Source of the DNA: Burkholderiales bacterium | GTDB lineage: Bacteria; Pseudomonadota; Gammaproteobacteria; Burkholderiales; Burkholderiaceae_C | DNA length: 64,000 nucleotides | Assembly (NCBI GenBank): GCA_013044035.1 | Contig: JABEVE010000004.1 | Span: forward strand, 133,588 to 197,587 | Reading direction: 5' to 3' | Part shown: positions 52,099 through 63,955 of the stretch, piece by piece | Numbering within the stretch: the stretch's first letter is position 1 | Layout of the letters: each line of letters begins with the position of its first letter | Notes under the pieces: model-generated | The model's database searches: none | Told to the model about the DNA's origin: nothing | What the model saw: only the letters and a program-made list of their open reading frames with translations | Program-made: the position numbers and the translations under genes

Positions 52099-53184
52099 AT
52101 GATGGAACGCCGTTCATTCGTCAAACATGCTGGTCTGGCGGGCATTCTTGCCGCTGGCGCAGCCCCGGCCGCTGCGATGGCACAACAAACCGTGCGCTGG
52201 CGCCTGGCTTCAAGCTTTCCTAATTCGCTCGACACGATTTTCGGTTCCGCCCATATCTTTTCCCAGAAGGTGAAGGAGGCCACCGATGGCAAGTTCGAAA
52301 TATCGGTGCATGCCGGCGGTGAACTCGTACCACCCTTTGGCGTGGTTGATGCCGTACAACAGGGCACAGTCGAATGCTGTCACACCGCGCCGTATTACTT
52401 TTTCGGCAAAGACCCGACCTTCGCGCTGGGCTGTGCCGTGCCTTTCGGGATGAACTCGCGTCAGATGACGGCTTGGATGTATCAGGGCAACGGCCTGAAG
52501 CTCATGCGCGAGTTCTACGCTGGTTACAACATCATCAATTTCCCGATGGGCAACACCGGCTCGCAAATGGGCGGTTGGTTCCGCAAGCCAATCAAGAGCC
52601 TGGCTGACATGAAGGGCTTGAAAATGCGCATCGGCGGCTTTGCCGGCAAGGTGATGGAGCGCATCGGCGTGATCCCGCAGAACATTCCCGGAGGTGATAT
52701 CTATCCCTCGCTGGAGAAGGGGACCATCGATGCCGCGGAATGGATCGGACCTTATGACGACTTGAAACTCGGCTTCTACAAGGTCGCGAAGAACTACCTG
52801 TATCCCGGTTGGTGGGAAGGCGGTCCTGAATTGGATCTGTTCGTCAACTCCAAGGCCTGGAATGCGCTGCCCAACGACTACAAGAGTGCCGTCGAACTGG
52901 CGGCCTCCCATGCGCATGTCAACATGCAAGCCATGTATGACGCACGCAACCCCAATGCGCTGCGTGAACTGGTGGGGAAGGGGGCCAAACTGCAACCTTT
53001 CCCGAAGGACGTGATGGAGAGCGCCTACAAGGCGGCCAATGAGTTGTATGCCGAGTTGTCGAGCAGCAATGCGAACTGGAAGAAGGTCTACACCGACTGG
53101 GCCAAGTTTCGCAACGATGACATCCTCTGGTTCCGTGTTGCAGAGAATGAGTTCGACCGCTTCATGATGACGCGCAAGCTGTAA
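52099..53184 (+). CDS. TRAP transporter substrate-binding protein, DctP family
   Basis: 361 residues. The N-terminus MMERRSFVKHAGLAG then AAPAAAMAQ is a Tat-like signal peptide. The mature protein has the DctP pattern WRLASSFPNSLDTIFGSAHIFSQKV, MKGLKMRIGGFAGKVMERIGVIPQNIPGGDIYPSLEKGTIDAAEWIGPYDD (the family's ligand-binding strand and loop) and WWEGGPELDLFVN, resembling the mannitol/chloroaromatic or 2-oxo-acid-type subfamily. It would bind an organic acid or similar in the periplasm. No DctQ/DctM membrane partners are adjacent, so it is an orphan. A ribosome site GGGAG precedes the ATG, with an in-frame ATG right after. Confidence 0.92.
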   Translation: MMERRSFVKHAGLAGILAAGAAPAAAMAQQTVRWRLASSFPNSLDTIFGSAHIFSQKVKEATDGKFEISVHAGGELVPPFGVVDAVQQGTVECCHTAPYYFFGKDPTFALGCAVPFGMNSRQMTAWMYQGNGLKLMREFYAGYNIINFPMGNTGSQMGGWFRKPIKSLADMKGLKMRIGGFAGKVMERIGVIPQNIPGGDIYPSLEKGTIDAAEWIGPYDDLKLGFYKVAKNYLYPGWWEGGPELDLFVNSKAWNALPNDYKSAVELAASHAHVNMQAMYDARNPNALRELVGKGAKLQPFPKDVMESAYKAANELYAELSSSNANWKKVYTDWAKFRNDDILWFRVAENEFDRFMMTRKL

Positions 53185-53443: not shown

Positions 53444-56176
53444 CTACCAACCTTCGCTGAGTAGCTCCAGCAGCTCCGTCCTGGCCAGTACCTTCGAACA
53501 CAGCTCCCACCGCTCCTTGCCCGGGTCTACGCTTTCACGCGTCTGGTACCGAATTTCAAAAGCATTCTTTGCGGCCTGTCGACGCTCGATGTACTTGTCG
53601 AGTTCAACTTCCATTCGCTCCTGGTCGTCAATCCACTCGTCGTCCAGTGTGTCGGGCAGTGACCCGAAGATGTCGAACTTATCCTTCAGCCGGCGCGACA
53701 GCACGCTGTAGACTTTCTCATCGCGGGTCTGGGCGTAGACCAGGTTAAGCATGTCAACTGTGCGCCGCATCTGCCCAAAACGCTTTATGCGGCCCAGCCG
53801 CTGTTCAAGTTTGCTGGGGTTCCAAGGCAGGTCAACGTTGATGAGGGTGCCCAAGGCCTGCAGATTCAGCCCCTCGCAGGCCGCGTCTGTGGCAACCACG
53901 AGCTTGACTTCATGTCGTTTGACCGCGCTCTTGATGTACTCGCGTTCCACCGTGGAGAACTCTTCCCCTTTGAAAAGACCACTTTTTCCGGCGCCAGCGT
54001 ACACGGCCACAACCTGGTCGGGGTGTGCCTTGGCAATCTCGGATGCCACCCACTTAGCGGTGTCGAAGTACTGGCTGAAAATTATGCAGCCGTGCTCGGC
54101 CCAGGTCTTGTTGTCCGGCGCCTGGCCGGTTCGGTAATCGTCCAGGAAATAGTTGACCGCGGCCAGCTTTGGGTCACGAGCTTCCAGTCGCCCCAGTTCG
54201 GCCACGATTTGTTTCAAGCAATCCGCTTCCTTTTCAGTCAGGGAATCCAGCGCATTCTCTAAGCCTTCCAGCTCGTCCTCGTCCTCAATGGGGCGCTTGT
54301 CCAGCATCCTCTGCGCTGTGGAACGACCTGCAGCAAAGCTGGAACAGATGCGTTGAAGCAGCAGATTCTTCATGAATCCAGCTGCCTTGGTGCGCTGCCC
54401 CAATAGGGCGGTGAATTCCTCCGCGGCCTGGTAGGCCAGGTTAAACGGGAGGTTCGTCATCAATCCGATACCGTCCAAAGTCAGGCCCGGGTAGGAGCCC
54501 AGCGGGGCTTTGGGGTCGGGATGCACATCCACTTCGACCCGTTCCAACAACCCCATCTCTTCGAGCACATCGCGCCTGCGCAGGACCGTGTGACGCAAGA
54601 TGGGATTGTTGTTCTTGAAAAAATCTTTGTCGCTGGCGATTTCCTCTAGCGTCATTTGGGAGGCGAAGTCCAGGTCTTGGTACGTTCGGTCGCTGAAATG
54701 CTGGGAATCGTCCAGGCCCAGGGTCATGCGCAGACTTTTCAACCGAGGGTCACTCTCGGTGCTCGGCGGCAGAGGCGTCCTGAGCAGGTCCCACACATCC
54801 GCAGGATTGGAGAACGTGACATCACCCTTGACGATAGGTAAGGCCTCGTCACAGTTGCGCCATTTGCTTGTGTACGGAAGCCCCATGACAAAGTCGGCGC
54901 CCTCGTTGAGCAAATTCAGCAAGTCCCAAAGCTCGACTATCTCCGTCTGGATAGGCGTGGCGGTGCCAATCACCAGATTCCTGGTCCGCTTAGCCAGCCG
55001 GGTCATGAAGGAGAGCAGGTTGTTGGGCTTGTACTCTTTTTTGCTGATACCGCGACTCACGCGGGCCTTGTGGCCTTCGTCCAGCACGACGGTACCGAAG
55101 GACATGCTCAGCAGTTCTTCGCATTCATCGGCCTTTTGGACCATGAGGCCATGCGACACGATGGCAATCGCGCTCGGACAGCGCTTGATGGCCGCGGCCC
55201 CTTGGGTGTTCTTGATAATGTGGCCATGTTCGTCCTGCCAGCACTTACGGGCCGACAACCACACCGCACTGGGAATGCCCAGCTTGTCCGTGAGCTCGGT
55301 CTGCCACTGAAAAGTCAGGGTGGATGGACACAAGATGAGTACCTTGCCATCACCTAGGAGGGCCGAAACCAAAGCAGCACCCGCCATGGATAGGGTCTTT
55401 CCGACGCCCACCTCGTCGGCCAGGAGGAGGCGGACCTTGCCGTACGTCTCGCGGTGCTGAAGAAAGATGGACACAAACGCCCGCTGCCAAGGCTGCAGCA
55501 TTTCACCCCCTCGGTACAGCGGGCTCTCCGCCATTACTGCACCGGGCACCTCTTCCGTCTTGAGGTCTTCGAAGCGCACTTCATGGCGCTTGGCCACCCG
55601 CTCGACCTCTTCGATGATGGCATCTGGTAAGGGGTAGCTGTCGGCCCATAGCGCATCGAACTCTTCGTCCACCCAATCCACGGCCTCTGGTGAGGGGTCC
55701 TCCCAAAGGATTTCGTAGTTGTCTGCAAAAGCGCTCTTGGACTCATTGATGGAGCCCATGAAACTGGTTTTGCGACCATCGGAAGCCTCGATGACACCAG
55801 CCTTCCCGTGCAAAAAGACCTTGTCTTTAGGCACCACACGGACCTGGACGTTACCCTTGCGCAGCAGCTCGTAGAGCTTGCGGTACTTGTCGCGGTACAA
55901 CAGCGCCTCGGCTGCTGGCGACACCTCATTCCAGGTCTCTTTCAGAGCAGCTTCACGCGCCGCCTGGGATACCCGGATGTCAGCGACGTCTAGCTCGCTA
56001 TTGCAAACGATGCGGACGTCTGGGATGTCGCCGATTTCTTCCCCGACCAACTCGAAAATAGAGCTGCGGAAATACCCGGCGATGCGTCGGTAGGAGACCG
56101 CGCCTTGCAGCCGCTTGGCCAGGAATTCCTTGTCAAGCCGTTGTCGGCGAGAGCTGAATCGTTGGATACCGCTCAC
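53444..56176 (-). CDS. PLD-domain SNF2-like helicase, anti-phage associated
   Basis: 910 residues. An N-terminal phospholipase D-like module carries one HxK motif (LHGKAGV, about 122-128, with GSINES after it). A superfamily 2 helicase follows: Walker A DEVGVGKT (254-261), DEGH box (366-369), GTATPIQ (motif III), TDAACEGLNLQ (763) and motif VI QRLGRIKRFGQ (792-802). Such PLD-helicases occur in defence islands. The start GTG 56176 overlaps the GIY-YIG stop by 4 bp (GTGA) and agrees with the family N-terminus (FSSRRQRLDKEFL); an ATG 21 codons earlier lies inside that gene and was rejected. A single HKD motif could give a PLD dimer site or serve DNA binding. Confidence 0.86.
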   Translation of the reverse strand: MSGIQRFSSRRQRLDKEFLAKRLQGAVSYRRIAGYFRSSIFELVGEEIGDIPDVRIVCNSELDVADIRVSQAAREAALKETWNEVSPAAEALLYRDKYRKLYELLRKGNVQVRVVPKDKVFLHGKAGVIEASDGRKTSFMGSINESKSAFADNYEILWEDPSPEAVDWVDEEFDALWADSYPLPDAIIEEVERVAKRHEVRFEDLKTEEVPGAVMAESPLYRGGEMLQPWQRAFVSIFLQHRETYGKVRLLLADEVGVGKTLSMAGAALVSALLGDGKVLILCPSTLTFQWQTELTDKLGIPSAVWLSARKCWQDEHGHIIKNTQGAAAIKRCPSAIAIVSHGLMVQKADECEELLSMSFGTVVLDEGHKARVSRGISKKEYKPNNLLSFMTRLAKRTRNLVIGTATPIQTEIVELWDLLNLLNEGADFVMGLPYTSKWRNCDEALPIVKGDVTFSNPADVWDLLRTPLPPSTESDPRLKSLRMTLGLDDSQHFSDRTYQDLDFASQMTLEEIASDKDFFKNNNPILRHTVLRRRDVLEEMGLLERVEVDVHPDPKAPLGSYPGLTLDGIGLMTNLPFNLAYQAAEEFTALLGQRTKAAGFMKNLLLQRICSSFAAGRSTAQRMLDKRPIEDEDELEGLENALDSLTEKEADCLKQIVAELGRLEARDPKLAAVNYFLDDYRTGQAPDNKTWAEHGCIIFSQYFDTAKWVASEIAKAHPDQVVAVYAGAGKSGLFKGEEFSTVEREYIKSAVKRHEVKLVVATDAACEGLNLQALGTLINVDLPWNPSKLEQRLGRIKRFGQMRRTVDMLNLVYAQTRDEKVYSVLSRRLKDKFDIFGSLPDTLDDEWIDDQERMEVELDKYIERRQAAKNAFEIRYQTRESVDPGKERWELCSKVLARTELLELLSEGW

Positions 56177-57105
56177 GCCTTGGCCTTCGCTTCGCGAATG
56201 TAGTCGCCCAAGGACTTGCCTTGGTTTCCCTTCCACCAATCGGCGTTGCTGATAGAGCCACGAGCAACCGCAGCTGCTGCTGAGCCAGAGGAAAAGAATT
56301 GGTCTATGGTGAACGCCCAGCCTTTGGCCGTCTGTGCAATGACGCCAGACTCTTGCAGCTGCCTGCGCAGTGCGGCGTAGCTGGGCGCGTCTACCTCAAA
56401 TCGGTCGGTCACGGGGTCCGCTACACGGCTGCCAGCCTTGATGACCACGCCTCCTTCTGCCACTTCCAAGGTGGCGTCGGCGTTGCGGGCAGATAATTTG
56501 AACTGCAGCCCCTGCGGAATGCTGGAATAAAGTGCGGCACGTTTGCCGGTGCTGATGGAAGCCGTTTCATCGGCTGTGGCTGCGGCGTCGGGGTCGTCTT
56601 TGGGGTCATCGGCGTCCTCTTCATCCACCGAGAACTGCCAAAAGCCAAGCAAAGGCAACATCAGCAGAATTTCATGGAGGAAGTTCTCGGTAAACGCGTG
56701 GTCCTCCTCCGACAGCGCTGGCACCGTGGGTTGGTTGGCGTTGTCCAACGGCACACGGTTGGCATGTTTGGCCAATGCAATCAGTCGTGACTCCAAGTGC
56801 TGCACATGCGCCTTGTTTAGGCGCCCGCCCTCGGCGGTGAAGAAGACACCCTTTTTCCAGAAGTCCTTGTGCCTGACGTGCGAGTCAATGCGGTCGCCCA
56901 CTGGGTCGCCTTCACCAATGTACATACGCTTGCCGCTTACCAGGACGTAGATGCCGGGCTGTTGGTACTCCTTGCGGCCTTTGACCTCTCCGGCCAGCGC
57001 GCGGGGAAAGATGACTGCGCGCCCCGGCCAATCATCACGGGACGCCACCAGGATGCCATCGGGTGCACCCGATGGCGAAAACAACCGAATGGAAAACGGC
57101 CTCAT
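56173..57105 (-). CDS. GIY-YIG nuclease with DUF4357-like C-terminal domain
   Basis: 310 residues. GIY at 51-53 and YIG at 62-64, the conserved arginine R72 (DRIDSH) and glutamate E105 (HLESRLI) are all present, so the nuclease should be active. A variable Asp/Ala-rich linker (about 160-185) follows. The C-terminus (about 249-292, ESGVIAQTAKGWAFTIDQFFSSGSAAAAV) resembles DUF4357, a module often attached to such nucleases. A ribosome site AAGGGGG precedes the ATG. It lies 20 bp after the methylase gene and overlaps the helicase start by 4 bp. Its role, as phage-DNA cutter, is inferred from context. Confidence 0.85.
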   Translation of the reverse strand: MRPFSIRLFSPSGAPDGILVASRDDWPGRAVIFPRALAGEVKGRKEYQQPGIYVLVSGKRMYIGEGDPVGDRIDSHVRHKDFWKKGVFFTAEGGRLNKAHVQHLESRLIALAKHANRVPLDNANQPTVPALSEEDHAFTENFLHEILLMLPLLGFWQFSVDEEDADDPKDDPDAAATADETASISTGKRAALYSSIPQGLQFKLSARNADATLEVAEGGVVIKAGSRVADPVTDRFEVDAPSYAALRRQLQESGVIAQTAKGWAFTIDQFFSSGSAAAAVARGSISNADWWKGNQGKSLGDYIREAKAKA

Positions 57106-57125
57106 AGAGCCCCCTTGCCGTGCGC

Positions 57126-60100
57126 TTAGAGGCGCTGGTTTTCGATTCCGTCAGCTAGCACACGGGCTGCGGAAGCCTCTCCCGGGCGCATGGCGTCGAC
57201 CTTCTTGGCAATGAACCGCGCAATGGTGACCAACATATTTCGCGACGAGTAGAACGCACCCACCTTCAAGTTCTGCTCCAGCCCTTTGAGCACCACGTCC
57301 AGGTCCTTGTCGGCCTGCAAGTCCATGAGCGCATACAGCACCGCGCGTGTTGGCGTTTGGTGCAGCTCCGACGACTGGTTCATCTCTGCCCGCCCGAAGT
57401 CCTTGGCTGACTTCAAAGCAGCCTTGTTGGCGCTCTCGCTGGCCATGAGGGCGCTGAAATCACGGACCGCAAAGGCTTTAGCGAAATTCTGATAGTTGTC
57501 CAGCTTGTTGAGGCCATGGGACTCTTGCTCGAGCATTTTCATGTAGAAGCGCTCAGCTGGCTCCAAGTCTTGCCAAACAGACTCCTCTAGGCCTAACGGA
57601 ACGAGCATCCTGTTGGCAGTATCGGTCGCAAATTCAATGAGGGTCTCTACCAAAGTGTTTTGCCCCTTTACGCGCGGGCGCAGAGCTTCCTGTGCCATGT
57701 CTTTGCCATCAATGATGCTGTACTTGGTCAGTACCTTCAGCGCTGCTGCGTAGCCTGCCATCTGCAGGTCAGCGTCTTCGAACAGGTTGCCGTCCTTGGC
57801 CCGCTTACTATCGGCAGCCATGGAGTCATTCATGCCGGTCAGACGCTTGATTTGGTCTGCCACCTCGTCCTCGAGTTCGTACGCCAAGTCGGTCTGGTTG
57901 GTGCGCTTGGCACCAAGCCGCTTGCGCAAGACCAGCAAGATGGTGCCTTTGACATAGGAGCCTTCACGCAGTGCGGAATCGGTTTCTGTCACCAGGTACC
58001 AAGCTGCAGTCACTCGCAGGCCGCTGGCCCAAACAATGTTGGCCATGTCCGCCCAGATGCTGCCGTCCTGGTGGGTGAACATCAGGATTTGCAGACCGTT
58101 GTCGGGCATGCACTCGGTCATACGCTTGTAGGCGGCGACCATGCCCAAGCGAAAGTCATGGTCCTCACCCTTCACCGCCAGTTCACGACGCGAGTCCCAG
58201 GTCCAGTTGGAAAACTCTGCTGGCGGGTTCTTGCGCAACCAGGCGATGAAGTACTCAAGGATTTCCTCGTATTTGACTGCATCGCCATACGGTGGGTCAG
58301 ATACAAATAAATCAGCTCGTAAGTTGAACTCGTGCGCTGGTCCCGAAAGAACTTGACCGACGCCACTGACTGGCCGAAAGGTCTTTAGGGACTGGGTCAG
58401 TTCCACCGTGTGATAGCCTGACTTACATCCGTAGGCGAAAAGCGTGTTCAAGGCTTGATTGGTAAACGTGCTCATCGCCTGAGCGCTCGACCCGGGGTGG
58501 CCTGAATCCCACCTGCAGAGCCGTGACGCGTAATCAAACGACCTTGTTGAGAAGATGCACGAGGACGCATTCAGAGAATGTTTGCGGATGAGCGAGTTTA
58601 CGAGCAGCTGCCTTGGGTTGAACAACTGGTGCCAATACGTCCAGCCGCGCTCTCGGTAAAGGCGCTCTGTTTCATCCCCCGGCTCAATCCGCGTATCCGG
58701 CACCCAGCCCTTGTCCTGCCACTCGGCCAGGTGCTCTTGGACGTAGCGTGTCACTTTCTCTTCACGGGCCAGGTCCGCCTTGGTCACGGTGCGGAATTGC
58801 GTGGGTGCCCGGCTTGAATCGCCCTCAGGCATCTCCTTAATCCACTGAACTGCATACAACCGTTCGTTGAAGATGTCGCCATCCCGGAAGACCACGTCGC
58901 TCTGGCCCCACAGTCGCAGGCGGTTCTTCTTAACCTTCCTGCCATCATCCGTGTCCGTGTAATCACCCCGGATGCTCGCAATGCTGTTGACGTGCTCCAC
59001 ACCGTTGACCGCGTGCACAACATTACCTGTACGGTAAGTGCCTTGTTCGGCGGCCTTCATCTCGGCAGCAGAGGCCTCGCAAACCAGCTCAATGTCATAG
59101 CGCTTCTCGGCCGCCACAGGCACCAGCTTTGCATAGACCGACTTGCCCTTACTGACCACCAACGTGGGCAATACTGGAACCTTCCAACCAGAAGACGGAC
59201 AAGTCACTTCAAGGCAGTACAGGTACACTTTGCCACGCCAGCCATTGCCGTCGCTTTCAATCCCCAGCTTATCGATTTCGGCCTTGACGTTAGCGACCAG
59301 TTCCGCCTGCTCGGTTTCGATTTCTTTACGTTTCTCAGCGCTGGCTCCGACAATGTTGAATGCGCCCCATGTCAACATGCAAGCCACGGGGTTGAGGTCG
59401 GATGCGTAGACGTCGCACCCCAGTTGCGCGGCTGCAAATGGAATCTGACCAGAGCCTGAAAAGGTGTCCGCCACCGTTGGTCGATGCCCAAAGCGCATGA
59501 CCCCCAGCTGCTCCACCAGCTCCGGAAATGAAGTGGCCTTTGTGCCTAAATGAGCATTAACCCTCCGCCAGATATGAGTACTCACCTTGTCAGCGATTTC
59601 TTCGGCACGCAAAGTGCCCCTGGCGCCGGCGAGCTCCTTGTAGGACTGAGAGTCAAATAGCTTTGCCGCCAACTCGTGCTTTTGGTCTTCAGATACGCCC
59701 TCCTGCCAAGATAGCCGGGGCACACGCTCAACTCCGTTTTTCAGATAGGTGTAGTCGTTGATATCAAAGGGTCCCTGCATCGGCAGAACGTCTGCCTGTT
59801 CGGGGGGGTCTACCTTGAAGAAGGCTCCGATGTCGTGAACAGGTACATGCCTGACGATTTCAACGGGTTTGGCCAATCCAATACGTTTCGACATCGAAAC
59901 GTCGTCCATGCCCATCAACAGCTCAAACACCTCCAAGTCCTTGATAGGGTCATCGGTGGCCGGCAACAGGGAGGCCAATACGCATGCGCGATTGAGCACG
60001 AGGGGTTTACGGCCTTTCCAGTAACTACCTAACGCGGTCAGCGTCTGCCCTGAGCCGGCCATACGTTCTTTGTAAACGTCGATGGACAGTTTCTGAACAG

Positions 60101-60218
60101 GCAGCAGCGACTCAATCAGCGCTGGGGCATCTTTGAGGCTCAGTGCTTGAACGCCAGAAGGATGTGGTGTGGTGGTGTAGTCCACCTTGGGAGAGGCTGT
60201 GACAGCGGTAGGGGTCAT
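57126..60218 (-). CDS. DUF1156-type DNA methylase, anti-phage associated
   Basis: 1030 residues. The N-terminal LIESLLPVQKLSIDVYKERM fits DUF1156. The SAM-binding motif is DTFSGSGQIPF (251-261) with DLNPVAC at 274-280, and the catalytic motif is DPPYGDAVKYEEIL (641 onward). DPPY indicates adenine N6 methylation. The roughly 370-residue segment between these motifs would include target recognition and a zinc-like part (YCLEVTCPSSGW). A long helical C-terminus follows to residue 1030. By analogy to similar operons it marks host DNA so the partner nuclease/helicase spares it. Gap of 41 bp after the DUF3780 gene and 20 bp before the GIY-YIG gene. Confidence 0.88.
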   Translation of the reverse strand: MTPTAVTASPKVDYTTTPHPSGVQALSLKDAPALIESLLPVQKLSIDVYKERMAGSGQTLTALGSYWKGRKPLVLNRACVLASLLPATDDPIKDLEVFELLMGMDDVSMSKRIGLAKPVEIVRHVPVHDIGAFFKVDPPEQADVLPMQGPFDINDYTYLKNGVERVPRLSWQEGVSEDQKHELAAKLFDSQSYKELAGARGTLRAEEIADKVSTHIWRRVNAHLGTKATSFPELVEQLGVMRFGHRPTVADTFSGSGQIPFAAAQLGCDVYASDLNPVACMLTWGAFNIVGASAEKRKEIETEQAELVANVKAEIDKLGIESDGNGWRGKVYLYCLEVTCPSSGWKVPVLPTLVVSKGKSVYAKLVPVAAEKRYDIELVCEASAAEMKAAEQGTYRTGNVVHAVNGVEHVNSIASIRGDYTDTDDGRKVKKNRLRLWGQSDVVFRDGDIFNERLYAVQWIKEMPEGDSSRAPTQFRTVTKADLAREEKVTRYVQEHLAEWQDKGWVPDTRIEPGDETERLYRERGWTYWHQLFNPRQLLVNSLIRKHSLNASSCIFSTRSFDYASRLCRWDSGHPGSSAQAMSTFTNQALNTLFAYGCKSGYHTVELTQSLKTFRPVSGVGQVLSGPAHEFNLRADLFVSDPPYGDAVKYEEILEYFIAWLRKNPPAEFSNWTWDSRRELAVKGEDHDFRLGMVAAYKRMTECMPDNGLQILMFTHQDGSIWADMANIVWASGLRVTAAWYLVTETDSALREGSYVKGTILLVLRKRLGAKRTNQTDLAYELEDEVADQIKRLTGMNDSMAADSKRAKDGNLFEDADLQMAGYAAALKVLTKYSIIDGKDMAQEALRPRVKGQNTLVETLIEFATDTANRMLVPLGLEESVWQDLEPAERFYMKMLEQESHGLNKLDNYQNFAKAFAVRDFSALMASESANKAALKSAKDFGRAEMNQSSELHQTPTRAVLYALMDLQADKDLDVVLKGLEQNLKVGAFYSSRNMLVTIARFIAKKVDAMRPGEASAARVLADGIENQRL

Positions 60219-60259
60219 TTTTTCTGGTTATCAGGGTAAAAGTCTGCAGGACAGCAGAT

Positions 60260-60841
60260 TCAGAACAGCTGCAGGCTGGTCGGTGGCTCTTCTTCGGGAC
60301 GGATGGAGCGCTTCTGCCGAGGCTCTGCCTTGCCACTGGACAAGGCGTAGTACAGGGCCTTGCGCCACCCGGCCTCTTTGTCCTCAGGTAATCCAGCCTC
60401 TGCCGCAGTCTGGCTGAAGAGCCACCACCGCTCCTCCGGCTTGAAAGCGGCCCATCTGGCGGCAATGGCTTTGCACTCATCCGCGCTGTTGGCATGCTCA
60501 GCGGCCCAGACCAGCACACATAGTTCCTTGCCCAACATTCGGTCGACCTTGTTGTCGCCAGTTGTCCATCGCGGGCTGGCCAGTTTTTTTGACTTCAGCC
60601 TGGCAGCAAAATCCTTGCGGGCGGTCTCCGCGATGGCTGACCAGAAGCGCCGCGGCAGTACCACGCGGGTCTCGCGCGGCGGCACACCGTTTTCACCGCC
60701 CTTGAGGCCGTAGTCCTCAACGACGGTGATGTCCCCTTTGGCAGAAACCGGAATCTCCACATGGAAGATGTGTGCGCCGAAGGTCGCGGCTCCGAAGCCC
60801 TCGAACTGGTCGGCCGGTTTCACATTTTTGGTCTGGGTCAT
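60260..60841 (-). CDS. DUF3780 family protein, anti-phage associated
   Basis: 193 residues, soluble, with no signal peptide or known catalytic motif. Recognised from its overall pattern: an N-terminal FGAATFGAHIFHVEIP strand region, ETRVVLPRRFWSAIAETARKDF, and a helical core with CVLVWAAEHANSADECKAIAARWAAFKPEERWWLF. DUF3780 proteins occur beside DUF499 ATPases and DUF1156 methylases, so it is probably a structural or adaptor subunit of the complex. It starts 18 bp after the ATPase gene stop, with 41 bp to the methylase. Confidence 0.75.
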   Translation of the reverse strand: MTQTKNVKPADQFEGFGAATFGAHIFHVEIPVSAKGDITVVEDYGLKGGENGVPPRETRVVLPRRFWSAIAETARKDFAARLKSKKLASPRWTTGDNKVDRMLGKELCVLVWAAEHANSADECKAIAARWAAFKPEERWWLFSQTAAEAGLPEDKEAGWRKALYYALSSGKAEPRQKRSIRPEEEPPTSLQLF

Positions 60842-60859
60842 GTATGCGGGACGAATGGG

Positions 60860-63800
60860 TTATTGGGAAAAATCGCTCTCGTTAAGTTCGATGCCAACCT
60901 GTTCCGTGAGGTCTAGCAGGTCTTGCCCGGTCTGGAACTGGAAGCGATGAATCTTCAAACTGATGGAGGAGTCAGCGGGCAGGCACGAACCAATCTGGTT
61001 GAGCACAGACTCTAGGTAGGCCCCGTCGGCTGGGGTGTCCCCCAGGAAGAACTGCACCGCAGCCGGGCTGCTGCCCACGACGGCGGCCACCTTTTCTACG
61101 GTCGCCTGGCGCTCCTTGAGCAGAGAGACCACCTGGTACGCGTCTTGGCGAGAGCCCAGGTTGACCATACGGTTGAGGCGCGCTGGCTTGCTGCGGTCGA
61201 TGACTACCTCGCGCTTGCCACCGCCACCCTCGTCACCCCGGCGGGCACCGACATACTCGAATTTCTCTTTGGCCTCAAGACCGCCGCCCTCCGCGAACGC
61301 CAGAATCTTGGCGGCGTTGTCATCCAGCTGAATCGGGCCGGTGTAGTCCTGGCCATTGCGGGCCTCTGACCCGTCCAATGTGTACTTGAGCGTGGCAGCC
61401 GGCGCCACGCGGAGCTCCACTTGACGTGTGGCGGCATCGAAATTGGCGCGGATGGTCAGCTTGTTGGTCCAGCTGGTGACCTCACCTGTGTCATATTGAC
61501 CGTTAGGGTCCACTGCGAGGAACTGGATGCGGTAGGCCTTGGACCGTAGCGTCTCGTCCTTGAGCACAGGACTGGATGTGCTGACAACGCCGTCTTCCGC
61601 GTAATGGATACGGCCACTGTGGCCTGCATTTAGGGCGTTGATGCGCAGCACGACCTCGCCATCGTCATTCGGGGTGGTATCAGCGACCACCTGAACAGAC
61701 GTTTTCTTTTTTGCTGGGGTGTGCGACACGTGGCCATTGCCCAGGTCTTCCCAGACGCCGCGCTGCACGGCGATGGCCTTGAGCATGTCCAGACCGCGCG
61801 GCGGCATCCACGGCATCTTGGCCCGCTGTTTCTCCCTGGCCACCGCCGTCGCCCAGTCAATCGTGGCAGAGCCATCGTTCCAGAGATTGGTTTCCGCGAA
61901 GTCGCGCAGCGTGTCAAAGTCCGCTTCCACGTCCAAAAACAACTTCTTGGGATGGGCGGTCAACGTTTTCTCAATTTGCTCTTCGCCATCGAACGGCTTG
62001 CTGTTGTCGCGGCGAGTGTCCAGCGGCTTGATTTTGAGCTCAGGTGGCTTCTCGCCAACCTGGGCCGGGTAGATGAGCTTGTCGAACACCCCGAGGATGG
62101 TGCTGTAAAAGTCGTGAGCGGACGACTCCTTCTTGCTCAAAAACTCCTCGTACTGCGCGTGTGACTTAGGAATCTTGACCTCAGCTTTCAAGGTCGCATA
62201 GCTCTTACGGGCAGCCTGTTCAATGCTGGCCATCTGCGTCTTGTCGCCAGTCAATACCAGAAGATTGTTCTTCTCCGGAAGCTCCGCAAAGAAAGCAGAC
62301 AGCTGCTCCGGGGGCATTTTGGTCGCAGGGTCGATGATGAGCAGCACACGGTTGCGCTTCACTTCAGCGATGACCTCGTTGAGCTTGGGCAGGGGAATGA
62401 CCTGGCTGTAGGCCGTCTTGCGCGTGGGCGCAAACATCTCCGTCAGCCGCGCTTTGATGAGCTCGTCAATCTGGGCCTCAGGCGCGGTGGCCGCAATGCC
62501 CTGCAGCATCTTGGTCAGGTTCTCCTGGCGGTCGAAGTAGAGCTTGGCATCTTGGCCTTGATGCATGAACCAGCACTCAGAGAGCATGCCATCGATAGCC
62601 GCGTTGTATTCCACCACCGACTGCATCGGGGTAACCACGCACTCCAACACTTCCTCACGCGTCAGCCCCTTGACTGCATTGACCGCAGTCGACAGGCTGG
62701 CCGTGAAGAGGAGGTTGGCGACCTCCGTGGCGTTCTTGTTGCCGCTCGAGGCGTCGATAGCCTGGGCGTGGGCCGCGAAGTTGACATCCCATAGGTCCTT
62801 GGAAATGACGTCGTTCATTCCCGAGATATCTGCCAGCTTGCTACGGACCGCTGTGATGCTGAGGTCAAAGTGCTGAGCGCCAATCAGGTAAATGTCATCG
62901 GCGTCACGCTCCCATACTGACTTGAGTAGGCGTGACATCAGCTCCATCAGACCGCGGGTCTGCCTGAACTGCTCATTTTCCTTAAAGAGAGCGACAAGTC
63001 CTTTCAGCCGAGGATGGAAGGGATAGGTTTGGACGATTTCGTCGGCCATTGCCTCCGCGCCGCGAGCAATCACTTTGGACTTAGTCGCCTCTTCCAGTGC
63101 CTGGCCATATCGGGCAGCCAGGTCCTGAATTTCGGCAGCGTCAGGCAGCTTGGTGAACAAGCGCTTGCGCAGGATGTCGTATACCTCGTTACCTGCCAGG
63201 TCCACCGGAGTGATGGTCTTTTCCTGACGGCCCAGCTCTTTGCGTGCATCGAATAGCGCACGCTCAATGAGGGCGCCACCCTGAGCGTAGGAGGCGTCCA
63301 GGTCGGAAACCACCACACAGACGTTAGAAAGTTTGCCCGCCGCGCTGAGCAAGTTGGCAAAAGCGCGGGTGGCGATGTCAGCGACCGTGCCAGTGCCCGT
63401 GGCACGCGTGCCCAGGTACTGGAAGTAAGGGGGCAGTTCATCGAGCAGAATGAGGGTCGGCTTGTCCGACCTGAGAAGGGCCGTCCAATCAGTCTCGTCC
63501 GGCGCCTCTGGACCCGAGGCCCAGAACTTCTTGAACTGCTCGCCCATGCCCAGTTGGTGCGCGATTTCACCCCACAGGTAGTGCGGCGGGCTGTTGCGAC
63601 CGTTGAAGGCCACCACACGGGCGGATTCAAAGGCGTCGATGTGCGGCACGTCAGCGCAATACTTGTGGCGCAACTCCCGGTGCTTCGCTGCGAGTCCAGC
63701 GCCCACAATCAGGTGGGTCTTACCGCCGCCCATAGCTTGCTTCAGATGGAAAACAGCATTCGAGGACTTGCCGGCCAGACGCTCGATGGTGCCTCGTAGC

Positions 63801-63955
63801 AAGTCGCGCATACCTGCGGTGATAAAAGTCTTGCTGTAGAAAGCCTCGCCGTTGCCTTCATCCTGAATCAGCTGGTCGAGTTGTTCGATTTGGTCGCTGA
63901 CGTCAATGGACAGCGCGTTGGGTGCCAGTTGGCAGGCTTGCTTGACGGTCTTCAC
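60860..63955 (-). CDS. DUF499-type P-loop ATPase, anti-phage associated
   Basis: 1031 residues. The N-terminal ATPase has Walker A QAMGGGKTH (73-81) and Walker B LILLDELPPYF (168-178). A second alpha/beta part spans about 500-640 (VLLIIDPATKMPPEQLS). The C-terminal third holds two Ig-like beta-sandwich segments (about 765-835 and 845-903), the second with the chitobiase-type pattern LKYTLDGSEARNG...YTGPIQL. A winged-helix-like end follows. DUF499 ATPases are the motor subunits of BREX-related and helicase-methylase defence operons. The start is GTG 63955, with AGGGAA upstream and an in-frame TAA at 63988-63986. It is the first gene of the operon visible in the window. Confidence 0.87.
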   Translation of the reverse strand: MKTVKQACQLAPNALSIDVSDQIEQLDQLIQDEGNGEAFYSKTFITAGMRDLLRGTIERLAGKSSNAVFHLKQAMGGGKTHLIVGAGLAAKHRELRHKYCADVPHIDAFESARVVAFNGRNSPPHYLWGEIAHQLGMGEQFKKFWASGPEAPDETDWTALLRSDKPTLILLDELPPYFQYLGTRATGTGTVADIATRAFANLLSAAGKLSNVCVVVSDLDASYAQGGALIERALFDARKELGRQEKTITPVDLAGNEVYDILRKRLFTKLPDAAEIQDLAARYGQALEEATKSKVIARGAEAMADEIVQTYPFHPRLKGLVALFKENEQFRQTRGLMELMSRLLKSVWERDADDIYLIGAQHFDLSITAVRSKLADISGMNDVISKDLWDVNFAAHAQAIDASSGNKNATEVANLLFTASLSTAVNAVKGLTREEVLECVVTPMQSVVEYNAAIDGMLSECWFMHQGQDAKLYFDRQENLTKMLQGIAATAPEAQIDELIKARLTEMFAPTRKTAYSQVIPLPKLNEVIAEVKRNRVLLIIDPATKMPPEQLSAFFAELPEKNNLLVLTGDKTQMASIEQAARKSYATLKAEVKIPKSHAQYEEFLSKKESSAHDFYSTILGVFDKLIYPAQVGEKPPELKIKPLDTRRDNSKPFDGEEQIEKTLTAHPKKLFLDVEADFDTLRDFAETNLWNDGSATIDWATAVAREKQRAKMPWMPPRGLDMLKAIAVQRGVWEDLGNGHVSHTPAKKKTSVQVVADTTPNDDGEVVLRINALNAGHSGRIHYAEDGVVSTSSPVLKDETLRSKAYRIQFLAVDPNGQYDTGEVTSWTNKLTIRANFDAATRQVELRVAPAATLKYTLDGSEARNGQDYTGPIQLDDNAAKILAFAEGGGLEAKEKFEYVGARRGDEGGGGKREVVIDRSKPARLNRMVNLGSRQDAYQVVSLLKERQATVEKVAAVVGSSPAAVQFFLGDTPADGAYLESVLNQIGSCLPADSSISLKIHRFQFQTGQDLLDLTEQVGIELNESDFSQ

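Follow-up and report, generated by a model that had tools for sequence, protein, structure and literature searches.

A Type-2 BREX-related defence operon of a Burkholderiales bacterium with a probable accessory GIY-YIG/DUF4357 gene between its methylase and helicase genes

Results

Gene content and layout of the operon

We analysed a stretch of 64,000 nucleotides (hereafter the window) from the 3.7-Mb draft genome of a Burkholderiales bacterium (GCA_013044035.1, 108 contigs), which corresponds to C36:133588-197587 on contig C36 (JABEVE010000004.1) and is present once in the assembly. The subject of this report is a putative anti-phage operon at 53444-63955, which consists of five minus-strand open reading frames (ORFs), none of them with internal stops. 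The contig ends at 202162, ~4.6 kb past the operon. In order from the first to the last gene, the operon contains:

60860..63955, minus strand: DUF499 AAA+ ATPase, 1031 amino acids (aa), gene 1 of the operon; called by PADLOC DUF499, NCBIfam NF042962 and Pfam
60260..60841, minus strand: DUF3780 protein, 193 aa, signature gene of Type-2 BREX-related (BR) systems; called by NF042961 and PADLOC DUF3780
57126..60218, minus strand: predicted DUF1156 DNA methyltransferase of the N6-adenine type, 1030 aa; called by NF042963 and motifs
56173..57105, minus strand: GIY-YIG endonuclease-like protein with a DUF4357/RAMA-like C-terminus, 310 aa, putative accessory gene; called by PADLOC PDC-S14
53444..56176, minus strand: PLD(HKD)-SNF2 helicase, 910 aa from GTG 56176, last gene; called by NF042964 and PADLOC PLD_Helicase

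The genes are spaced by 18 bp (DUF499-DUF3780), 41 bp (DUF3780-methylase) and 20 bp (methylase-GIY-YIG), followed by a 4-bp overlap between the GIY-YIG and helicase genes. The mechanically called helicase ORF (931 aa) begins at a TTG at position 56239, within the GIY-YIG gene. The GTG at 56176 is the most likely start, because it aligns with the ATG starts of the helicases in two related operons (L114 and L128), and it yields a GTGA overlap with the GIY-YIG stop, the counterpart of which in L114 is ATGA. Taken with this start, the ORF listing bears out the five minus-strand genes, spacings and overlap given in an earlier note on this DNA, and that note's reading of the co-directional genes as a single transcription unit is upheld. 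The gene names proposed there were also right: the PADLOC profiles, which the note had suggested running, match all five proteins (E-values from 1.9e-67 to 0), with DUF499, DUF3780, DUF1156_MTase, PLD_Helicase and PDC-S14 as the best profiles, and four of the five are covered by NCBIfam equivalogs. The locus is therefore not explained by chance ORF content.

The four core genes

Core genes were called with (i) the NCBIfam "anti-phage" equivalog models at their own cut-offs, (ii) PADLOC profiles and (iii) Pfam at curated cut-offs. All four NCBIfam cut-offs are exceeded, in agreement with the earlier assignment to a defence-type gene set: DUF499 scores 1411.8 bits against NF042962 (cut-off 1200) and 1384 bits against PADLOC DUF499; DUF3780 scores 223.8 bits against NF042961 (cut-off 200) and 224.6 bits against PADLOC DUF3780; the methylase scores 1261.6 bits against NF042963 (cut-off 1000) and 1355 bits against PADLOC DUF1156_MTase; the helicase scores 1217.7 bits against NF042964 (cut-off 1100) and 1374.7 bits against PADLOC PLD_Helicase. 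According to a 2026 survey, the set of DUF499, DUF3780, DUF1156 and HKD helicase constitutes the Type-2 BR system, which is restriction-modification-like and occurs in 1120 taxa (PMC12839542).

We aligned the core proteins with those of the related loci described below, leaving out short-ORF rows, so that besides the window the alignments hold 81 of 100 helicases, 103 of 111 methylases and 83 of 99 ATPases. In DUF499, all 84 rows agree at Walker A (G76-T80) and at D172/E173. In the methylase, the F-x-G-x-G residues and the D, P and Y of DPPY are identical in 104/104 rows, the second P in 103/104. In the helicase, H144, K146, G162, S163 and N165 (numbering of the 931-aa ORF) and Walker A are identical in all 82 rows, and Pfam places PLDc_2 at residues 74-198. 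The DUF499 protein exceeds the Pfam cut-offs for DUF499, CHB_HEX_C_1 and Fn3_assoc, and the Pfam scan finds one CHB_HEX_C/Fn3_assoc (Fn3/CHB_HEX-like) stretch at residues 843-891; in Type-2 BR systems, tandem FnIII-like domains are described before a C-terminal RRM of DUF499 in 53% of taxa (PMC12839542).

A sequence search against the PDB related the helicase to RapA and other SNF2 ATPases and found no convincing relative for DUF499, the methylase or DUF3780. The AlphaFold2 model of DUF3780 (predicted local distance difference test, pLDDT, 86.1) has no convincing fold match in the PDB (best Foldseek E 0.23, best VIA Z 3.5), and such poor matches of a model are no demonstration of a new fold.

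Presence and absence of the GIY-YIG gene in related operons

We gathered 111 related loci from plasmids (10 loci, L062-L071), GTDB species genomes (80, the best of at least 538 confirmed stretches) and viral contigs (21). The earlier note had named a lack of similar gene sets in defence islands as a refutation of its reading; many such sets exist. The annotated plasmid loci retain the core order DUF499-DUF3780-DUF1156-helicase; L068 is interrupted and lacks the helicase.

A relative of the GIY-YIG gene was detected in 5 of the 111 loci (tblastn, E ≤ 1e-4). In Comamonas jiangduensis (L114, 85% identical) and Limnohabitans sp. DM1 (L073, 57% identical) it lies in the methylase-helicase junction, as in the window. 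On two viral contigs (L155, L159) it lies just downstream of the helicase, with 42% identity over residues 1-170 and a different C-terminus, and in Roseovarius tolerans (L136) it lies on the opposite strand. Searched with the single GIY-YIG sequence, the viral contigs gave no relative; an alignment-based search gave 26 loci, 2 of them beside BR genes, both on contigs already in the set.

Caldimonas tepidiphila (L072) and a second operon of Limnohabitans DM1 (L128) have open cores, 74-90% identical to that of the window, without the GIY-YIG gene. The gene is present or absent with exact junctions, from methylase stop to helicase start, and the adjoining frames are undisturbed. In the four core-gene trees, the window, L114, L128 and L072 form one clade (support 1.0, 1.0, 1.0 and 0.99) that comprises two carriers (window, L114) and two non-carriers (L128, L072). 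Within it the carrier L114 is sister to the non-carrier L128 (support 0.94, 0.77, 0.67 and 0.77), and elsewhere the carrier L073 groups with the non-carriers L093, L122 and L095. Because both carriers group with non-carriers, the trees indicate that the gene was gained or lost more than once. The GIY-YIG gene is optional in Type-2 BR operons.

The GIY-YIG/DUF4357 protein

The fifth protein matches PADLOC PDC-S14 (PDLC04922) over its whole length (497.1 bits, residues 1-309), as do all 18 relatives chosen for comparison, and matches none of the NCBIfam models. An alignment of these 18 relatives shows no variation at Y53, Y62, G64, R72, E105 and N122 and almost none at G51 and H76; among the 20 relatives of a second set, Y53, Y62, R72, H76 and E105 are invariant and N122 falls outside the conserved list. 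We take Y53, Y62, R72, H76 and E105 to be GIY-YIG active-site positions, from the set of two tyrosines, arginine, histidine, glutamate and asparagine. At E ≤ 1, Pfam finds DUF4357 in 14, GIY-YIG in 12 and RAMA in 7 of the 18 relatives (best RAMA E 3.4e-4).

In an AlphaFold2 model of the protein (pLDDT 86.1, predicted template modelling score 0.52), residues 34-123 resemble the GIY-YIG domains of UvrC (VIA Z up to 6.3, 1ycz) and, more distantly, R.Eco29kI (Z 3.9, with unrelated rows from 3.4 down), and residues 184-310 resemble the DNA-bound RAMA domain of MPND (7ydw; Z 6.2, root-mean-square deviation 3.0 over 81 residues), all at Z values below 8, which by the tool's own warning may be chance. 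At E ≤ 10 Foldseek returned 347 matches, the best of them with an E of 0.27 and thus none reaching E ≤ 0.001, and a sequence search of the PDB returned weak unrelated rows only (E ≥ 0.5).

The PADLOC DUF3780 profile (361 positions) matches 12 of the 18 PDC-S14 relatives (best 1.2e-16), and the window protein and its L114 copy align to profile positions 292-354. The nuclease thus seems to share its C-terminal domain with fused forms of DUF3780 that occur in other versions of the system. Among the 104 DUF3780 ORFs of the gathered loci, we found no long variant (>260 aa) with an extra C-terminal domain, so that it is the PADLOC profile that carries this comparison. Fusions of DUF3780 to RAMA or ASCH/PUA readers have been described (PMC12839542).

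PDC-S14 genes outside BR operons

In a phylum sample of 398 genomes, PDC-S14 matches occur in 48 (E ≤ 0.001) and DUF499-type matches of any strength in 21, of which one, the window's own, exceeds the NF042962 cut-off. We inspected the surroundings of the 20 best PDC-S14 places other than the window's own, out of 35 reaching 100 bits. At three of them (L177, L186 and L192, Pfam-confirmed), the PDC-S14 gene stands in a type I system, between the HsdS and HsdR genes. In L177 and L186 there is a 4-bp overlap of its start with the hsdS stop, and in L192 two more ORFs stand between it and hsdR. Because PDC-S14 genes occur in type I loci and among seemingly non-defence genes, the family is not restricted to BR systems, yet it is repeatedly placed between marking and cutting genes. 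The 90 cellular and plasmid BR loci hold three PDC-S14 relatives against ~0.04 expected, a rough figure that assumes a mean genome of 3.6 Mb, combines two differing search methods and takes related loci as independent.

A gene 50% identical to the window's GIY-YIG/DUF4357 gene lies outside any BR operon on the 70-kb plasmid pPT70 of Paraburkholderia terrae (L061:12001-12915), near an annotated serine protease and a site-specific integrase. We found no demonstrated function of PDC-S14 in the literature surveyed, outside which the source preprint (Payne et al. 2024) lies.

Use of the three core-gene junctions

We scored a junction as open if tblastn left a gap >250 bp between the core genes. By this measure DUF499-DUF3780 is open in 3 of 98 loci, DUF3780-methylase in 22 of 103 and methylase-helicase in 31 of 100, and both of the latter differ from DUF499-DUF3780 (Fisher p 7e-5 for DUF3780-methylase and 8e-8 for methylase-helicase, the loci not being independent). 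Junction contents were named by Pfam or by blastp grouping with a Pfam-named protein. Recognised modules of a defence or toxin-antitoxin type were found in 16 of the 100 methylase-helicase junctions; the remaining open ones hold unnamed ORFs, other genes or non-coding DNA. The named contents are:

DarTG, methylase-helicase junction: L078, L083, L088, L113
Macro half of DarTG, DUF3780-methylase junction: L155, L168, L171
Schlafen/DUF4062-HATPase proteins, methylase-helicase junction: L070, L079, L086, L092; other junction: L110
MNT or MNT-HEPN, methylase-helicase junction: L094, L109
GmrSD, methylase-helicase junction: L091
AAA_21+DUF4276, methylase-helicase junction: L097
AbiJ_NTD4, methylase-helicase junction: L082
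PIN, methylase-helicase junction: L064
GIY-YIG, methylase-helicase junction: L073, L114

DarTG-type genes thus occur in Type-2 BR operons, with the macro protein in seven loci and DarT as well in five of those. Embedded effectors described for BR systems comprise PD-(D/E)XK, HNH, OLD/TOPRIM, HEPN, PIN and Schlafen proteins, and the available main text of that survey contains neither 'DarT' nor 'GIY-YIG' nor 'DUF4357' (PMC12839542). The embedding of defence modules is itself a known phenomenon (PMC10855318, PMC12988326, PMC12255303).

Two Burkholderiales operons carry related small proteins with no Pfam match in the methylase-helicase junction (L093:7601-7969, 122 aa; L122:12865-13200, 111 aa), which are possible accessory proteins. 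In a Methylovulum metagenome-assembled genome, the same junction holds a 336-aa ORF and an 808-aa subtilase (Peptidase_S8; L141:12563-15999).

Surroundings of the operon and other defences of the host

Immediately beyond the window, a WYL-domain gene (L002:12015-12878) is oriented divergently from the operon, and WYL relatives stand directly upstream of DUF499 in 3 of the 111 loci (L134, L075 and L167); WYL proteins are known to repress BREX and CBASS (PMC12255303). The interval between operon and WYL gene (L002:11948-12005) has two divergent sigma-70-like sites that overlap with an imperfect inverted repeat of 17 nt, a possible operator judged by consensus match only. To the left of the operon lies a TRAP-type DctP gene (52099-53184), and to the right a DUF6471 gene, unnamed ORFs and an IS1595-type transposase. 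The DUF6471 gene (90 aa, L002:12844-13116) lies on the strand opposite to the WYL gene and overlaps its end. RptR was considered as the regulator and dropped; DUF6471 is unmentioned in the available text of PMC12255303.

On contig C30 the host carries a separate defence block (L219:91-14160) in which a WYL regulator and a full Hma operon (HmaA 2060, HmaB 1574 and HmaC 1450 bits) are directly followed by Gabija (GajA 763 and GajB 815 bits).

Discussion

Interpretation of the locus

We conclude with good though not complete confidence that the operon is a restriction-modification-like anti-phage system of Type-2 BR, complete in its four genes, with an acquired fifth, accessory gene. The core is already known and the fifth gene belongs to PDC-S14, a known family of phage-defence candidates; what is new is the clean presence and absence of this gene in one clade, the reader-like domain shared with DUF3780 and the unequal occupation of the three junctions. 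The exact five-gene composition, for which the earlier note knew of no established immunity, resolves into the known four-gene core, represented by the NCBIfam set and described as Type-2 BR (PMC12839542), and a single embedded PDC-S14 candidate gene. The note's comparison with the logic of BREX holds.

By analogy with the protein families, the DUF1156 methylase would mark host DNA at adenines, DUF499 together with DUF3780 would survey DNA and load or license the HKD-SNF2 helicase, and the helicase would translocate on and cut unmarked incoming DNA. The proteins of the system would also be expected to form a complex. The GIY-YIG/DUF4357 protein would be an optional, co-translated nuclease, a second line co-expressed with the core, that attacks phage DNA, perhaps DNA with a modification evading the main system. 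The possible reader domain suggests such an attack on foreign-modified DNA, and the embedded nuclease is possibly modification-dependent; it would then have to spare the host's own adenine marks.

A more general proposal, which we advance tentatively and consider possible rather than probable, is that Type-2 BR and type I operons can accommodate accessory genes in a socket that separates the marking gene from the cutting helicase. GIY-YIG/DUF4357 would plug into it as a self-contained, modification-dependent (type IV-like) nuclease cassette; the main system would destroy unmarked DNA and the cassette foreign-marked DNA, and the cassette's reader-like domain would be the one fused to DUF3780 elsewhere. 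If so, a single transcript would close the escape route of modified phages, and a modification-dependent plug-in would stack two opposite self/non-self rules in one operon.

Several observations weigh against an acquired defence accessory and its possible reader function. Outside the window, the GIY-YIG gene occupies only 2 of the 100 methylase-helicase junctions and is therefore not a regular part of the system. Both of these loci may be decayed or badly sequenced copies, because two in-frame stops interrupt DUF499 in L114, where the methylase and helicase genes also have frame breaks, and the DUF499 of L073 has one stop. In the PDC-S14 sample, only the three loci named above, of 20, belong to a type I system, and many of the others lie beside genes that, judged by eye, seem not to be defence genes. 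For the window protein itself Pfam reports neither GIY-YIG nor RAMA, and DUF4357 scores 29.8 bits, under the curated cut-off of 38.4. MPND RAMA binds DNA without clear preference for N6-methyladenine (m6A) (PMC9963953), which speaks against a simple reader role.

The patchy distribution of the gene across related operons and the 50% identical copy on the Paraburkholderia plasmid would also suit a selfish or homing-type passenger that is expressed from the operon without benefit to defence, and GIY-YIG domains are indeed known from homing endonucleases. We regard such a passenger as unlikely: the insertion is exact and leaves the neighbouring frames undisturbed, the siting between modification and restriction genes is repeated in two kinds of system, and in other loci the same junction holds known anti-phage or toxin-antitoxin modules. 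Conservation of the GIY-YIG active-site residues and the GTGA (window) and ATGA (L114) overlaps, by which its translation appears coupled to that of the helicase, could instead point to an integral fifth subunit in this lineage, with the GIY-YIG protein as the main cutter and the helicase HKD as secondary. This is rather improbable, given that the HKD and helicase motifs are identical in all 82 helicases, the window's included, that the sister operons L128 and L072 have an open core without the gene, and that the gene is present in 2 of 100 junctions.

An acquired accessory gene in a complete Type-2 BR system thus remains our preferred explanation. The core system has a name, yet no solved mechanism in the literature surveyed. 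The one clade with two carriers, two non-carriers and exact junctions is a natural experiment, and the role of PDC-S14 is therefore directly testable.

Comparison with known systems

Identity with Hma, which the earlier note had proposed, or with BREX is highly improbable: the ATPase, methylase and helicase are homologous and match the Hma profiles weakly, but at 175, 68 and 121 bits (HmaC, HmaB and HmaA) against 1384, 1355 and 1375 bits for the dedicated models, the Type-2-specific DUF3780 and the HKD helicase are present, the host has its real Hma operon on contig C30, and neither the five operon proteins nor the scanned flanking proteins, on a contig that ends ~4.6 kb beyond the operon, include a PglZ/BrxZ-like protein. 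The DISARM models, too, score far below the dedicated ones, and the labels Hma, BREX and DISARM were all rejected on PADLOC scores and missing parts. Hma, classified as Type-1 BR, has a homologous DUF499 ATPase, DUF1156-type methylase and SNF2 helicase; it differs in lacking DUF3780 and in carrying a C-terminal restriction nuclease in place of HKD (PMC12839542).

The closest counterpart is the Type-2 BR system (NF042961-NF042964; PDLC02189, PDLC02191-PDLC02193), which agrees with the operon in the identity and order of the four core genes, the N-terminal HKD of the helicase, an Fn3-like region in DUF499 and a stand-alone DUF3780. Gao et al. 2020 reportedly described this core as a 'restriction-like' system (Gao_RL), and PADLOC lists it as GAO_29. 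The operon differs from the described Type-2 BR systems in the extra GIY-YIG/DUF4357 gene between methylase and helicase.

For the fifth protein, the nearest comparison is with m6A-dependent type IV enzymes of the winged-helix (wH)-GIY-YIG kind and the proposed GIY-YIG-RAMA enzymes, which have the same two-domain layout of a GIY-YIG domain and a possible reader of modified bases. wH-GIY-YIG enzymes cut m6A DNA, so that modification-dependent cleavage is shown for the winged-helix fusions, and the RAMA fusions are proposed as candidates only (PMC11037411).

For the arrangement, the comparison is with DarTG2 of E. coli, which lies inside a type I restriction-modification operon and is regulated by RptR (PMC12255303). 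The host system and the module are different there, and RptR takes the place of the WYL neighbour found here; in both cases, a second module lies between the specificity or marking gene and the restriction gene, co-transcribed in E. coli (PMC12255303) and probably so in the window.

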